DNA from: Candidatus Eremiobacteraceae bacterium
GTDB lineage: Bacteria > Vulcanimicrobiota > Vulcanimicrobiia > Eremiobacterales > Eremiobacteraceae
DNA length: 42,113 nucleotides
Assembly (NCBI GenBank): GCA_035314825.1
Contig: DATFYX010000043.1
Coordinates: 1 to 42,113 of the forward strand
Reading direction: 5' to 3'
The position numbers and the translations under genes are program-made. Below the pieces are notes generated by a model. It saw only the letters and a program-made list of their open reading frames with translations. It was not told where the DNA came from and ran no database searches. Numbering within the stretch: position 1 is the first letter of the stretch; each line of letters opens with the position of its first letter. This document shows positions 19,028 to 42,113 of the stretch, one piece after another.

Positions 19028-22000
19028 ATGCTTTTTCGCCGCTCCAGGAGCCTAACGCTCGCCCTGGCATTCGTGCTTGCCATCGCGCCGCTCGCGGCGA
19101 ATGCCGGCACGACCGGCAACATCTCGGGCAGAACGCTTGACGAGCACAGCGCGCCAGTTGCTGCCGTCAAGGTGACGGTGACATCGCCTTCGCAAGCGGT
19201 GACGACGCTTTCCAGCGCGGCCGGCTTCTACTCCATCCTCAACCTTGCGCCCGACACGTACCGCATCACCGCGGTCAAAGATGGCTACGCCACCGCGACG
19301 CAGAGCGGTGTCACGGTGCTCGCCGACCAGACCAGCCGGGTGGACATGGTGATGCAGCCCTCGGTGCGCACGCTCGGCCGCGTCACGACCACCGCTGCAG
19401 CCGGCATCGTGAGCAAGTCGGTCACCGGCGATCTATACGCGGTCAACGCGCAAGCGATCAACTCGTATCAGGGCAGCGCCGGCGGCGCCGAGACGCTGTA
19501 CAGCCAGAACGGCGTCGTCGGATCCTTGCCGGGCGTCACGCGTACGGTCGGCACCGGCGGCGGGTATGCCGGCAACGGCAGCTTGAGCATCCGCGGCGGT
19601 TCGAACGACCAAGTCGGCTTCGAGCTCGAGGGCATTCCGCTCAATCGCTCGTTCGACTCCGCCAACGCGACCGCGTTTCTCACCAACGGCCTCTCGCAGC
19701 TGCAGGTCTACACCGGCGGCGAGCCTGCCGATTCCGGGCGATCGATGGCCGGATACATCAATGAGATCATCCGGCGCGGCTCGTATCCGGGCGGCGGCGA
19801 CCTGACGTATGTGATCGGCACGCCTGATCTGAACAGCACGATACAAGCCGACGTCTACGGAGCCTCGCCGAACCGGCACTTCGACTACTACGCCTCGACG
19901 CTGTGGATCAACTCGGGATACAGCTTCGGCAACCGCAGCAATCTCGACAACACGGTCATCAACGTGCCCGCCAACGACCCGGGCTGCGGCGCGTCAAACG
20001 CGCTCACCGGAGCCGCGCTCGATTGCACCATGCCGCACACGCTCAACATGCCGATCTCGCAAGGCGCATGGTCGAGCCTGCTCAATCCGCAGGCAGCGAT
20101 GGCCGATACCGTCGTGAATCTCAACTGGGGTTTCGACCACCAAGGTCTGACCGACAACCTGCAGCTGCTCTACAACGTCGGCATGACGCGCACGCCGTTC
20201 AACTATTCCGGCCCGACCCTCGATCCGCTGCTCTCAGCCAGCGGCGTGACCGGATCGACCGGACTGCTGCTCTATCCCACCGGCGCGCTCTACACGGGTG
20301 CGCTCGGCGGTGTCTTCGATCCCAACGCGATGTACACGCTGACCTGGCCGTCCGCCGGCGGCAGCGTCGGAGAGATCCCGCCCGCCTATCGCGACAGCCA
20401 GCGCACGCAATCATCCATCGAGAAGGTCAGCTACACGCGCGCGTTGACCAGCTCGTCGTTCCTGCGCCTCTATGGCTACGCCATCTACTCGCTGTGGAAC
20501 TTCGATCAGGCGACCAACGGCTATCTCGGCGATTCGTTCTACGATCTGCATGACAACGCATACGGCTTGACGTTGAACTATCAGAACCAGGTCGACGCGC
20601 ACAACCTCGTGCGGCTCGACGTCGACTATCTGCAAGAGAACAGCCTGCGCTACAACTACGCCAACAATTTTTCGATCGACGGCTTCGTCAATTGCTTCCT
20701 ACCGTACAATCCCATCCTGACGCCAAACCCATATGCTCTTGGGCCGAACGGCATCGACTTCGGCTGCGCGGCCAATGCTGGAGAACAGGTCGCACAGATC
20801 AACGGGCCGTATGCGTACTGGAACAGCATCAGTCCGGTCACGAGCGATTTCGCGGTGGCGGACACGTGGCACCCCAACGATCGCTTGACGTTCGACATCG
20901 GCATACGCTACGACGACTTCTACGTGCCGCTCATGCCGCTGCAGATCACCGGCCCGAACGGCATCGCCGAGCAGGCGCAGGATCAATTCGGAACGTGCTT
21001 GCACGGTTATGCATACGCCGCCAACTCGAATTGCAATCTCTATCTGACTCAGGGAGCGACGGATGGTTCCTTGCCGACGTCGGCCATGCCCGGTGCCGGC
21101 AATTGGACAAATGTCAGCGGCTCTGAGACGTTCACCTACTGGAGCCCGCGTTTCGGCGTGACCTACTCCGCCACGGCGCGCGACGTGTACCGCTTCTCGG
21201 TCGGCCGCTATGTCCAGGCGCCCGCGACCGCCTATGAGGAATACCGCGGCGCGCCCGTGTGGGGTCCAGCCGACACGGTCTCCATCCTCAACAACTTCTA
21301 CGACGGCATCGGCTTCACGGCGCTGCACAACATCCAGCCGCAGGACAGCACGAACTACGACGCGTCGTGGGAGCACGATTTCAACAATGCGATGGCGATG
21401 AAGATCTCACCCTTCTATCGCGACACGCGCAATCAGATCCTCAATATCCCCGTCAACCCGGCCATGCCGACGTTCGAGACCGGCTATAATTTCGGCGCGG
21501 CCCGCATCAGCGGTGCGGAGTTCCTGCTGCGCGACTATCGTACGTCCGACGGCTGGAGCGGCACGCTTGCGGCCACGTACACCAACTCCAAGATCCGCTT
21601 CACCGCGCCCATCGGCGGCACCAACTTCATCGACACGATGAATGCCGGCATCAGCGCGTACAACACGCAGTACAACACGAACTATCCGCTGCTCAACCGC
21701 AATGGATTCTACTCGCCGTCGCTGTTCCAAGGGCCGACGATCACCGGGCCCTCGTACGACGTGGCCTGGGTCGTCAACCTCAACGCGAGTTATCAGACCC
21801 ATGGCTGGCTGCTCTCGCCGACGTTCAACTACCAGTCGGGCAACCCGTACGGCGATCCGCTGCTGTTCCCCGACACGCACTGCCCGGCCACACCGTATCC
21901 AGGCTGCATCCCAAACTCGACGGGCATGGCGCCGCTGACCTATGGCCCTGACCCGTACACCAACACGTTCGACGCGCCAGGCTCGCTCAAAGGCCCGTGG

Positions 22001-35268: not shown

Positions 35269-36522
35269 TCAGCGTGCGAGAACGGCGGGGGAGAAGCGGG
35301 TTTTGAAATCGGCCGCGGACATGCCCGCGGTCTTGGCCAGTTCTCCTAATCGCGGCTCTTCCAAATCGGCCGCCTCCAGGCGGATCATGTATTTGCGGCC
35401 CACCTCGTAGGCTTCGGTCGCGGTGTCCACCACGCGAATGCGGATGCGCCCGGTCGCAGGATCGAGCATGTCGTCGAGCGTCACCGGCTCGACTTTTCCT
35501 CCGCGCAGCGCGATCATCGCCCCCGAGCCGCCGCGCATGAGGTAGCGCACCGCGCCGTAGCCGAGCGTGCGCGTGTATTCGACGTCGAAGGCCACCGGCT
35601 TCGCGCAACGCAGCTCGTAACCGATCTCCTTTTTGATCACGGTCGCGTCGAAGCGCAGCGCTTCGAGCCGCTGACGCACGAACCCGCGCACCGCGTCGCC
35701 GACGTCCAGATCGCTGATGCGGATGTGTCCGTATTGGTCGCGCGGCACGTTCTTGAGACCCGCCAGTGACTGCTCGTCCAGATGCTCGACCACTCCCTCA
35801 GCGACGATCGCGACGCCATGATCGTGACCCATGAGGCGGCGCTTGATCATGCTGCCGATGATGATGTCAGCGACGAGCTCGAGCGACACGCTCGAACCGG
35901 AGAACTCTTCGGGGATGATGGCCAGCGTGCCGCCGGCGGCCTTGCAAATCGCCAGCGCCAGCGCGCCCGACTTGCGACCCATGCAGACCGCCGCGTACCA
36001 GCGTGTGGTCGTCTTGGCATCTTCCATGAGACTTTCGACGATGCCCGAGCCGACCGCACGCGCGGTCTCGAAACCGAAGCTCGGCATGTTCTCGGGCAGC
36101 GGCAGGTCGTTGTCGATCGTCTTGGGCACGGCCACGACGCGGATCGAGCCGCCGGCAGCCTCGGCGATCTTGGCCGCGCCGAACGTGGTGTCGTCGCCGC
36201 CGATGCACACCAGGTCCGTGATGCCAAGAGTCCGCAACGCGGCCACGCAGCTGGCGAGCGTCGTGTCGTTTCTCGCCGGGTTGGTGCGCGAGGTACGCAG
36301 AATCGAACCCCCGGTCCAATGGATACGACTGACGTCGTCGATGTGCAATGGGGTCACGTGTGCGGTGTCGGCGCCTGCAAGCCACAAAAAGCCGTCGTAG
36401 ATCCCGATCACGCGGCACCCTTCATTGATCGCCTCGATCGTCGCCGCCGCGATCACGCTGTTGATGCCCGGCGCGGGACCTCCGCCGACCAAGATGCCTA
36501 GGGTGCGGCCTGAATCGCTCAT
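35269..36522 (-). CDS. Phosphofructokinase, pyrophosphate-dependent type
   Basis: 417 residues. Phosphorylates fructose 6-phosphate. GGGPAPGINSVI forms the N-terminal phosphate loop. GGDDT (108-112) has Asp where ATP enzymes have Gly (GGDGS/T), and PKTIDND (133-139) has Lys where ATP enzymes have Gly; both changes mark pyrophosphate as phosphoryl donor. MGRKSG (181-186) binds the substrate. ATG 36522 overlaps the previous gene's stop (ATGA). The start further upstream is only open frame inside that gene. The enzyme would make this step of glycolysis reversible. It is the last gene of the paralogue array. Confidence 0.9.
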   Translation of the reverse strand: MSDSGRTLGILVGGGPAPGINSVIAAATIEAINEGCRVIGIYDGFLWLAGADTAHVTPLHIDDVSRIHWTGGSILRTSRTNPARNDTTLASCVAALRTLGITDLVCIGGDDTTFGAAKIAEAAGGSIRVVAVPKTIDNDLPLPENMPSFGFETARAVGSGIVESLMEDAKTTTRWYAAVCMGRKSGALALAICKAAGGTLAIIPEEFSGSSVSLELVADIIIGSMIKRRLMGHDHGVAIVAEGVVEHLDEQSLAGLKNVPRDQYGHIRISDLDVGDAVRGFVRQRLEALRFDATVIKKEIGYELRCAKPVAFDVEYTRTLGYGAVRYLMRGGSGAMIALRGGKVEPVTLDDMLDPATGRIRIRVVDTATEAYEVGRKYMIRLEAADLEEPRLGELAKTAGMSAADFKTRFSPAVLAR

Positions 36523-37082
36523 GTGCGCCCTGGGGGTTGAGGTTGCGCCGCCATGAGCTGCGCCATGCGGGGCAGATTTGCCGGATACACGCCGTCCGGA
36601 TAGCGCGCGAGCCACAGTTTGGCCAGCACGGCGACGTATTCGAAATTCTCAAACGCGGCCGGTCCAAACTTGGCGCGCTGCGCGGCGATCGCAGGCCAAA
36701 GGTCATCCCACGAGCGCAGCACCTGGGGGGCCGAAATGTCGAGCCACGAACGCTTGTCCACCAACGAATATTTCATGAACGTCCCTATCTGCTCCCAATA
36801 GTCCGCGACCAGCAGTTCAGGGTGTTCGGCTCGCGAGATGCCCCCTTCCGCGTACTGGGCGAGGAACTTCGGATCTTTCAACTTCTCCTGGAGCGCGGTG
36901 CGCGAATACTGGATGTGCGTCTGCATGTCGGGCGTATCCCACATCTGCATGAGGGTGAGCAAGGCGTTGAGCTGGTTACTCGTGCGCATGTGGCGCAGCT
37001 GGATAAGGGCCGCAATGGCGGTCGCGGCGATAACGACGAACGTCGCGCCGGCGAAGACGGTGCTCCAGACCTCAAGGGACAT
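36519..37082 (-). CDS. Single-pass membrane protein, paralogue family member 2
   Basis: 187 residues, starting MSLEVWSTVFAGATFVVIAATAIAALIQLRHMRTSNQ. The transmembrane helix is at about 8-28. The shared EHPE, WEQIGTFMKYSLVD and FENFEYVAVL segments follow, then a C-terminal YPDGVYPANLPRM. Function unrecognised. ATG 37082 lies 11 bases inside the preceding gene, and the stop overlaps the phosphofructokinase start (ATGA), so it is translationally coupled on both sides. Confidence 0.75.
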   Translation of the reverse strand: MSLEVWSTVFAGATFVVIAATAIAALIQLRHMRTSNQLNALLTLMQMWDTPDMQTHIQYSRTALQEKLKDPKFLAQYAEGGISRAEHPELLVADYWEQIGTFMKYSLVDKRSWLDISAPQVLRSWDDLWPAIAAQRAKFGPAAFENFEYVAVLAKLWLARYPDGVYPANLPRMAQLMAAQPQPPGRT

Positions 37083-37641
37083 TCGGCGCGGTGTCCTCGG
37101 AATAGATGTCGACCACCGGTAGATGCGGCGCATCTTTCGGATACGTGCCGCCGGCGTGGGCCGCCTCCCACTTCATCGCGCGCGACGCGACGTACTCGAA
37201 GTTATCGTACACCTGCGGTCCGCGCGTCCGTCGGATGATAGCGAGAACCGGGTTGAGCTTGTGCCAGGCCGCGATGCACTGGAATCCGCCAGACTCCATG
37301 AAACCCTCTTCGGCGGTGTATCCAAGCTTGATCAAGGTGCACATCGACTCCCAAAAGTCGAGATACGCGACCTCGGGATGCTCGAGCCGGTCGATCGGGA
37401 TCTTCTGGAGACTATCTCGGTAGGCGCGGTCCTGGAGCTTGCGTTCCATCTCGCCCTGGAAGACATAGTTGGCCAATGCGCGTGCATCCGGGCTCGCCCA
37501 TTTGTCGAGCAGTCCTAGCGATGCGCTGATCTGGTTGCCCGCCCGCATGTGACGCAGTTGGATGACCGCGGCGACCGCCGAGGCCGCGATGACGATGAGC
37601 GTGAAGAACGACGAGACCGCCGAGAGCTCTTCCCAGCTCAT
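37072..37641 (-). CDS. Single-pass membrane protein, paralogue family member 3
   Basis: 189 residues, starting MSWEELSAVSSFFTLIVIAASAVAAVIQLRHMRAGNQ, with the transmembrane helix at about 10-28. Shared segments: LEHPEVAYLDFWESMCTLIKLGY, YDNFEYVASR and GGTYPKDAPHLP. Function unrecognised. The ATG at 37641 overlaps member 4's stop (ATGA). It is the most diverged of the four in its N-terminus (MSWE instead of MSLE). Confidence 0.75.
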   Translation of the reverse strand: MSWEELSAVSSFFTLIVIAASAVAAVIQLRHMRAGNQISASLGLLDKWASPDARALANYVFQGEMERKLQDRAYRDSLQKIPIDRLEHPEVAYLDFWESMCTLIKLGYTAEEGFMESGGFQCIAAWHKLNPVLAIIRRTRGPQVYDNFEYVASRAMKWEAAHAGGTYPKDAPHLPVVDIYSEDTAPNVP

Positions 37642-38189
37642 TCTCTCACGCCGCTCACATCCGGCAGGGGCAGCCGCTCCATGTTCGCGGGAAACGCGCC
37701 GCGCGGATGGCGACGTGTGAATTCCCGGCCACGCACGACGAGGTATTCGAAGTTCTCCCAGACCGCGGGGCCACGATTGCGGCGCATCAGGGCGATCGTC
37801 ACGGCGAGACGATCCCAATCATTGCTCACGGCGAACGAGGCGAGATCGAGAAACGAATCCGCTTGGATAAAACCGTGTTTGACCATCGTGCCGACCTGCT
37901 CCCACCAGGTGATGACACGCACTTCAGGATGGAGCGACCAATCGTTTGCCGCCACCTCCAGCGAGCGTGGATAGCCGGGATCTTTCAGTCGGCCGGCGAG
38001 CTCGGCCCGCACGTAATGGGAAGCCGCGCGCATGGCGTCGTCATCCCACATCTCATTGAGCTTGAGCATGGCCTGTAGTTGATTGCTCGCCTGCAGATGG
38101 CGCAGTTGGATTAGCGCGGCGATCGCGGTAGCCGCGATGACGACAAACGTGCCGACTACGGCCAGGGTGTTGATCACTTCTAGCGACAT
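37638..38189 (-). CDS. Single-pass membrane protein, paralogue family member 4
   Basis: 183 residues, starting MSLEVINTLAVVGTFVVIAATAIAALIQLRHLQASNQ, with the transmembrane helix at about 8-28. Shared segments: LHPEVRVITWWEQVGTMVKHGF, WENFEYLVVR and HPRGAFPANMERLP. Function unrecognised. First gene of the array. The ATG follows a perfect hairpin by only four bases and no ribosome-binding site is visible, so translation may depend on structure or on readthrough from clpC. Confidence 0.75.
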   Translation of the reverse strand: MSLEVINTLAVVGTFVVIAATAIAALIQLRHLQASNQLQAMLKLNEMWDDDAMRAASHYVRAELAGRLKDPGYPRSLEVAANDWSLHPEVRVITWWEQVGTMVKHGFIQADSFLDLASFAVSNDWDRLAVTIALMRRNRGPAVWENFEYLVVRGREFTRRHPRGAFPANMERLPLPDVSGVRE

Positions 38190-38244: not shown

Positions 38245-40746
<2,502 letters not shown>

Positions 40747-40787: not shown

Positions 40788-40857
40788 TTGACTAGGTGCA
40801 CAGGTGTTCGACGTTTTGCGCCGATTCCGCTTCTTTTGCGACCTAGACGTTTAGGGG

Positions 40858-40882
40858 AAAAGAAAAAGCCCCAAGGGCTCTC
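40858..40882 (-). terminator. Intrinsic terminator of the 41049-40861 RNA
   Basis: On the minus strand, GAGAGCCC and GGGCTTTTT can pair around a short loop, followed by CTTTT. It ends a transcript before clpC begins, so the RNA is separate unless readthrough occurs. Confidence 0.7.
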
Positions 40883-41049
40883 GGTCTTCGCTGTACTGGA
40901 GCCCGCCGGTGAAGGCGGGAGTCGCATCGGCTTTCGCTTGATCAGGTCATGCCCAATCGCTACGCCCGGGTTACACAATCCGGATGCGGTCGGTGCTCAC
41001 GCCGTCCGCTCGCCGATCGGTACGCTATAGAGCGGGCCCCTTGAGGCTT
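40861..41049 (-). ncRNA. Candidate structured RNA, about 189 nt, possibly 6S-like
   Basis: The predicted transcript begins at about 41049, seven bases after a strong -10 box, and ends at a U-tract near 40861. Its two ends pair: AAGCCUCAAGGG at the 5' end with CCCUUGGGGCUU at the 3' end, twelve base pairs with one G-U. Inside are hairpins: CGCU-CUAU-AGCG; an arm pair GCGG-A-CGG with CCG-A-CCGC; and CCCGCC with GGCGGG (40902-40919). A rod closed by its own ends, about 185-190 nt and with its own promoter and terminator, resembles 6S RNA, which binds RNA polymerase. The SRP RNA signature GGAAGCAGC is absent. Family assignment is a guess. No open frame here looks like a gene. Confidence 0.5.
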
Positions 41050-41055
41050 AAGCGC

Positions 41056-41084
41056 ATGATACGCCGACGTCACTAGAGTGTCAA
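41056..41084 (-). promoter_or_regulatory. Consensus sigma-70 promoter of the structured RNA
   Basis: TTGACA (41084-41079) and TATCAT (41061-41056) on the minus strand with exactly 17 bp between. The best promoter match seen in the window. The first base of the RNA's closing stem lies at the expected start point. Confidence 0.75.
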
Positions 41085-41130: not shown

Positions 41131-42113
41131 ATGTCGGAATCTTCGCACTTCGTCGCGATCGGTCTGGGCTCGAATCTAGGAGACCGGCAGGCTAATCTCT
41201 CGCGCGCCCTCGCATTGCTGAGAGAAGTTATCCACATCGAGCGGATCTCGCCTGTGTATGAAACTGCGCCCGTCGGATTTGCGCAGCAGCCGGATTTTCT
41301 GAACTGCGCGTGCACGGGACACACCGCGCTCGCCCCACGCGAGCTGCGGGCTGCGCTCGCGTCGATCGAGCGCCGCGTCGGGCGCGCCGCGTCGTTCCCG
41401 ATGGGTCCGCGCGCCATCGACCTCGACATCCTGCTCTATGACGATCTCGTCATGCGCGATGAGGAGTTGACCATACCCCATGCGCGCATGGCCGAGCGCG
41501 CCTTCGTCCTCGCGCCGTTGCGCGATGTCGCGCCCGATGCGACTGAGCCGGTGTCGGGGCGGACCGTGCGCGCACTTGCCGCCGCTGCGGACATGTCGGG
41601 CGTGCGCCGCTTGGATGGAGACCTCGTCGCGCGCATCCGGCGCGACGTGCAAGAGATGCGTCCGCAGGTGCCACTGTCGCTCAACCGCGCAGGCATCACC
41701 GGCGTGAAAACCACGATCTCGTTGGCGCTGCCCGCCGGGCGTCAGAGTGCGATCGCGACGCTGGACATCTTCGCGGACCTCGACGCTGCGCACAGCGGCG
41801 TGCACATGTCGCGCTTTTCCCAGGATCTCGAGGACGCGCTCTCTGATCTCGCCGGCCAGCCCGGCGCGCGGGTGGAGTCGCTCGCGCTCGCCGTCGCGCA
41901 ACGGGTGGTCGCAAGCCAGCGCGCGGAGATCGCACACGTGGATCTGCGCGCGGAGTTCGCGCTGCCGCGGCACACGCCGGCGAGCGGCATACCGACCAAC
42001 GAGTATTACACGGTGCTCGCCAAGGCCGTTGCGGCCGTAGATTTTTCGCGCAGCTTGCTCGGCGTCGAGGCCGAGGGGATCACCGCGTGTCCGTGTGCGC
42101 AGGCGATGGTCGC
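41131..42113 (+). CDS. folK: FolK fused to a GTP cyclohydrolase IB (FolE2/MptA-like) domain, open at the right edge
   Basis: The frame from ATG 41131 has no stop to the end of the window (327 codons). Residues 6-160 are FolK (HPPK): GLGSNLGDR, SPVYETAPVGF, GPRAIDLDILLYDD (92-105) and IPHARMAERAFVLAPL. It pyrophosphorylates 6-hydroxymethyl-dihydropterin. From about residue 171 comes a COG1469-type GTP cyclohydrolase: RDVQEMRPQVPLSLNRAGITGVK, GVHMSRFSQDLEDAL (223-237), and GITACPCAQ (316-324) with the metal-binding Cys region. The GITACPCAQ form is closest to archaeal MptA. Both are folate/pterin enzymes, the first and third steps of the branch. The remainder of the second domain is beyond the window. 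Confidence 0.85.
   Translation, partial: MSESSHFVAIGLGSNLGDRQANLSRALALLREVIHIERISPVYETAPVGFAQQPDFLNCACTGHTALAPRELRAALASIERRVGRAASFPMGPRAIDLDILLYDDLVMRDEELTIPHARMAERAFVLAPLRDVAPDATEPVSGRTVRALAAAADMSGVRRLDGDLVARIRRDVQEMRPQVPLSLNRAGITGVKTTISLALPAGRQSAIATLDIFADLDAAHSGVHMSRFSQDLEDALSDLAGQPGARVESLALAVAQRVVASQRAEIAHVDLRAEFALPRHTPASGIPTNEYYTVLAKAVAAVDFSRSLLGVEAEGITACPCAQAMV

Follow-up and report, generated by a model that had tools for sequence, protein, structure and literature searches.

What is encoded in the short interval between two divergent genes, clpC and a folK-folE2 fusion, in the genome of an Eremiobacteraceae bacterium? The window, by which is meant the whole stretch of 42,113 nucleotides that was analyzed, harbors in this interval, on the minus strand at 40858-41084, an element that the original prediction described as a structured RNA with its own promoter and terminator. 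Its length and an apparently closed rod shape had been taken to fit 6S RNA, and a new RNA or a terminating leader for clpC had been named as other readings. Here we describe the locus and its occurrence, the predicted ends and fold of the RNA, and how well each of these readings accounts for them.

The locus and its conservation

The element lies 5' of clpC (38245-40746, minus strand) and on the same strand. Its upstream neighbor is the divergent folK-folE2 gene (41131-42111, plus strand), which runs past the end of the window. This gene encodes a single protein in which HPPK (folK) is fused to the type I GTP cyclohydrolase folE2, and it is retained in all 14 genomes of the family. Downstream of clpC, three consecutive genes (36519-38189, minus strand), each encoding a DUF4760 protein (Pfam PF15956), form a tandem array of paralogs.

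The comparison set comprised the family of the window's genome (f1), with 14 genomes from nine genera, the window's own included, within the phylum Eremiobacterota, now named Vulcanimicrobiota. Placement in this phylum agrees with the clpC protein, whose nearest named relative among GTDB contigs, at 73% identity, is from a Candidatus Eremiobacterota genome, all other hits reaching 64% at most. The element was detected in every one of these genomes, at one clear place in each, and the arrangement of folK-folE2, RNA, and clpC is identical throughout. At the DNA level, the RNA of the other 13 genomes is 70-90% identical to that of the window. The conserved structured core, delimited by similarity and covariation, occupies 40868-41047 on the minus strand; in the window's genome it is present as a single copy and scores 159.9 bits with the model. 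It is 180 nt long in the window and 172-180 nt among the relatives, and about half of the RNA is made up of positions that are invariant or nearly so in the 14-genome alignment. The conservation of the RNA is similar to that of the 6S RNA in the same genomes. A protein-coding reading was ruled out, as stops are found in all frames in several genomes and the lengths vary out of frame.

Promoter and predicted ends

The minus-strand promoter sequence that had been proposed was confirmed at 41056-41084, and is a near-consensus one of the sigma-70 type, with a -35 hexamer TTGACA (41084-41079), a 17-bp spacer, and a -10 hexamer TATCAT (41061-41056). It is the sole sigma-70-like match within 501 bp, where 0.2 would be expected from shuffled sequences. 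The promoter-like sequence is kept at a fixed distance from the RNA in all 14 genomes of the family: the -35 element reads TTGACA in 13 of them and TTGACG in one, the spacer is 17-18 bp, the -10 element is invariably TATNAT, and 7-8 nt separate it from the invariant GCCUCAAG.

The predicted start, at about 41049, is the seventh base past the -10 element and coincides with the opening A of AAGCCUCAAGGG. This segment pairs with CCCUUGGGGCUU to give a 12-bp end-to-end stem that is present in the minimum-energy fold. The earlier placement of the predicted start at the first base of this stem agrees with this, and so does that of a hairpin and U-tract at the other end of the RNA. The latter, an intrinsic-terminator-like hairpin of the form GAGAGCCC-UUG-GGGCUUUU followed by the U-tract, lies at 40858-40882 (minus strand), and the 3' end of the RNA is predicted to fall within the U-tract. 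Together, the start and this hairpin fit a predicted transcript of 189-192 nt. The RNA was assigned to the minus strand because of the promoter and terminators; the types of base pair favor this strand only slightly, with 24 G-U cells and 17 A-C cells on the RNA strand.

A branched secondary structure

RNA position p corresponds to window position 41048-p, and all of the following features lie on the minus strand. The RNA is predicted to fold into a closing stem, P1, with P2 and P3 stacked on it, leading into a four-way junction composed of P4 to P7, and a further hairpin, P8, branches between P4 and P3. This fold, which is backed by covariation, is at odds with the closed rod that had been envisaged.

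P1 (RNA positions 1-10/171-180; window 41038-41047 paired with 40877-40868) is near-invariant in sequence, its 5' arm carrying GCCUCAAG in 14 of 14 genomes and its 3' arm ending in CUUGRGGC, and position 9 is mismatched in seven of the 14. P2 (14-19/161-166; 41029-41034 with 40887-40882) holds a C.C mismatch that is mostly conserved. P3 (23-30/150-158; 41018-41025 with 40898-40890), whose 5' arm reads GCGUACYG, shows covariation, with four compensatory pairs. P4 (31-36/117-122; 41012-41017 with 40931-40926) pairs AUCGGC with GCCGAU, closes the four-way junction, and is nearly invariant.

Within the junction, P5 (39-62; 40986-41009) is a hairpin closed by GCGG and CCGC, P6 (65-82; 40966-40983) has the form CCGGAUU-N4-AAYCCGG, and P7 (90-108; 40940-40958), GAUUGGG paired with CCUGAUC, contains four compensatory pairs. 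The joining segments of the junction (GA, AU, GCGUAGC, and CGAAA) are nearly invariant; of these, GCGUAGC (40959-40965), between P6 and P7, is invariant and single-stranded, and the invariant CGAAA lies in the segment that leads from P7 to P4 (40932-40939). P8 (about 129-147; 40902-40918) has a loop that is variable in both length and sequence, and its register shifts among genera. The invariance of P1, the mismatch in P2, and the invariant joining segments suggest sequence-specific recognition, such that P1 may be more than a mere closing stem.

Statistical support for the fold

In alignment A4, 94.4% of the cells in paired columns are standard pairs and 14 pairs have changed on both sides. 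These values were matched by none of 500 column shuffles, and slid controls on the same alignment gave 25-45% pairing with at most six pairs changed on both sides. Because shuffles ignore relatedness, a per-column simulation along the tree was also run. For the 15 pairs that are variable on both sides, 85% pairing and 31 compensatory cells were observed, against an expectation of 64% and 11.7 from this tree-preserving simulation, and none of 5,000 simulations was as high; these figures are to be read in the light of the structure having been picked on the same sequences and A4 having been fitted to it. No single pair reached significance in an R-scape-like test of the 14 sequences, since these are too few, and significance is reached only in aggregate.

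Independent support comes from folding the sequences singly, where the same branched architecture is recovered in most of the 14, and each of the 14 surpasses in folding the average of its own shuffles (z from -1.5 to -5.7). For the window by itself the signal is weak, with z near -2 over the 193-nt stretch and at -1.5 over the 180-nt core. These values leave room for a chance fold, and it is the relatives that settle the matter. Covariation among relatives, the absence of which would have counted against the original prediction, was thus found. Judged by comparative sequence analysis, the element is a genuine structured RNA family, in which compensatory changes exceed in aggregate what phylogeny would produce.

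Search outside the family

A full model (R1) and a core model (R2), applied within the phylum to 149 genomes, gave clear matches only in the 14 genomes of the family. Searches of more than 40 genomes ran with stricter filters, and distant relatives could therefore be missed by them. Weak extra matches of about 19-23 bits were returned in G014, G016, and G050, which were rejected as a residue-by-residue reading shows the invariant core to be broken, and two further ones were in G110 and at a second place in G004. In families f2 and f3 (23 genomes), the regions preceding clpC yielded no credible RNA match even with the filters off, and folK-folE2 was not found near clpC there within the stretch examined. 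A DNA search of 388 relatives gave outside the family just 24-34 base matches, and viral contigs, phages, and plasmids gave no match to the element. There are no credible homologs outside the family among the genomes searched. The literature searched held nothing relevant on small RNAs of Eremiobacterota, nor did it describe an RNA that precedes clpC.

A separate RNA gene or a clpC leader

The explanation towards which we lean is that the element is a new stand-alone structured non-coding RNA gene, with its own sigma-70 promoter and an end before clpC, the RNA probably being trans-acting and protein-bound. The sequences themselves show conservation, the promoter, the fold, the single copy in the window's genome, the lack of an Rfam match, and, in two genera, separate terminators with which the fold is compatible; that the RNA is transcribed, acts in trans, and binds protein is what we infer. 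The RNA would be transcribed from its own promoter and terminated ahead of clpC. Its ends would pair as P1, the rod running on through P2 and P3 to the four-way junction of P4-P7 as the core. This core, along with the sequence-invariant P1, may be bound by one or more proteins, and the resulting RNP-type RNA would then have a regulatory or housekeeping role in trans. That the RNA adjoins clpC is probably because gene order has been retained in the family.

The main rival, which is possible but doubtful, is the leader of the original prediction, now in the form of a cis-acting, aptamer-like or protein-responsive domain, made up of P1 and the four-way junction, that would control read-through into clpC, for instance by a choice between P1 and the terminator hairpin. 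In its favor, the element is always 5' of and co-directional with clpC, and the constancy of this neighborhood in all 14 genomes, which a cis-regulator would also predict, weighs against a stand-alone gene. The highly conserved junction segments also resemble a binding pocket. In the window's genus (g1), moreover, the 5' arm of the terminator is the 3' arm of P1, and the two would therefore be mutually exclusive, as in an ON switch.

This mutually exclusive arrangement is, however, not conserved, the overlap being confined to g1. In genera g3 and g4 (five genomes), the terminator is found 24-26 nt further downstream, is separate from P1, and, according to the predicted fold, coexists with the RNA in its closed form. 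A strict scan for intrinsic terminators ahead of clpC gave a match in eight of the 14 genomes and none in the other six, and these six count against the stand-alone reading, as does the aggregate nature of the covariation support.

Across the 14 genomes, 121-258 nt separate the RNA from clpC, a variable distance that also argues against a leader. This gap is otherwise diverged, and its only clearly conserved motif is GTCGAA (40807-40812, minus strand), kept in 12 of 14 genomes; in some there is an inverted repeat, such as AGTGTCGAACACT. The motif could serve as an operator or belong to a promoter of clpC itself, and a separate clpC promoter would again speak against a leader. In other families of Eremiobacterota (L136, L139-L143, and L145), the sequence CGAAAC or GGAAAC is found upstream of clpC about 18 bp before GTTA, in several f2 genomes as CGAAAC-18-GTTA; this arrangement resembles promoters of stress-type extracytoplasmic (ECF) sigma factors.

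Two further points bear on the leader. The folK-folE2 neighbor is as well conserved as clpC, and synteny therefore does not single out clpC; and other Eremiobacterota families carry clpC without the element. The separate terminators of g3 and g4, the variable gap, and the GTCGAA motif, all read from sequence, favor a separate RNA gene over a leader.

Relation to known RNA families

Leaving 6S aside, it is improbable that the element belongs to a known RNA family and has strongly diverged within it. Very diverged members can escape covariance models, but a scan of the window and 10 relatives (11 loci of the family) with Rfam 15, in permissive mode to an E-value of 10, placed no family in the element, and none at the gathering threshold. 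The Rfam search that had been proposed thus matched the element to no family, and the only weak match, at an E-value of up to 5 on a short stretch, was to ctRNA_p42d (15.3 bits against a gathering score of 50), covering the terminator hairpin alone. RNase P, SRP, and tmRNA were rejected as identities, all three being located elsewhere in each of the four genomes tested (G000, the window's own, G001, G005, and G010), and ARAGORN found no tRNA or tmRNA at the element. Elsewhere in the window, ARAGORN called a 90-nt tRNA-Asn(GTT) at 20582-20671 (minus strand), for which Rfam gave no match at the gathering threshold and which is probably false. No Ro/TROVE protein was found in the 14 genomes of the family, which is evidence against a Y RNA. 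A TROVE/Ro-domain protein is present in one genus only, g10 of family f2 (G020, G042, and G049).

The 6S identity that was first favored does not hold. The 6S covariance model (RF00013) gives no match to the element at E-values up to 5, the true 6S RNA of the window's genome is found at G000:C1:35924-36105 with 83.9 bits, and in 12 of the 13 relatives, too, the 6S RNA is located away from the element; the four-way junction and the P8 branch also set the element apart from 6S RNA, whose rod is unbranched and opens into a large bubble at its center. A second, divergent 6S RNA that binds RNA polymerase (6S-2-like) is very improbable on the same grounds, the element having a covariation-backed junction rather than a rod with one central bubble and the true 6S being present besides, even though the length and paired ends would fit and two 6S RNAs do occur in some bacteria. 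Least credible of all is a conserved stretch of DNA with a chance fold, such as regulatory DNA between folK-folE2 and clpC, as the largely invariant core, although no proof of structure in itself, shows compensatory changes that cluster in the proposed helices beyond any of the tree-aware simulations and is flanked by a promoter and terminators.

The reading of the element as a new RNA is thus supported by its conservation, its covariation, and its lack of an Rfam match.

Significance and comparison with known systems

Bacterial RNAs of this size that are conserved and covarying are often central regulators, ribozymes, or riboswitches. We consider the chances evenly balanced that the element represents a new class of RNA whose core is a four-way junction, acting either as a lineage-wide RNP or housekeeping regulator or as a new ligand-sensing aptamer, found in every sampled member of the family and in no other organism searched. 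The host phylum is poorly studied and mostly uncultured, and the literature search showed no work on its non-coding RNAs. The alignment and consensus structure make the candidate RNA directly testable and suit a new Rfam entry. Its interest is that of a clean and novel class of RNA from a little-studied phylum rather than of a demonstrated mechanism.

The element shares features with several known systems. The element resembles bacterial Y RNA, which associates with Ro, in having paired ends whose stem contains conserved mismatches; it differs in that the family encodes no Ro/TROVE protein and the element has no Rfam match. Like the element, 6S RNA (RF00013) is about 180-190 nt long, has its own promoter, and has its ends paired in a long closing stem, whereas the element is branched, with invariant segments joining the helices of its four-way junction, and a separate 6S RNA is present in the same genome. 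Riboswitch-type 5' leaders have in common with the element a P1 closing stem, a multi-helix junction with invariant single-stranded segments, and a downstream terminator, but the element has no conserved expression platform, has P1-compatible, separate terminators in two genera, and lies at a variable distance from clpC. Finally, although it is absent from Rfam 15 and was found only within a single family of a single phylum, the element is similar to the orphan structured bacterial non-coding RNAs brought to light by comparative genomics (such as the 104 candidates in PMC2864571), which are likewise covarying, conserved, and intergenic, with no function assigned.
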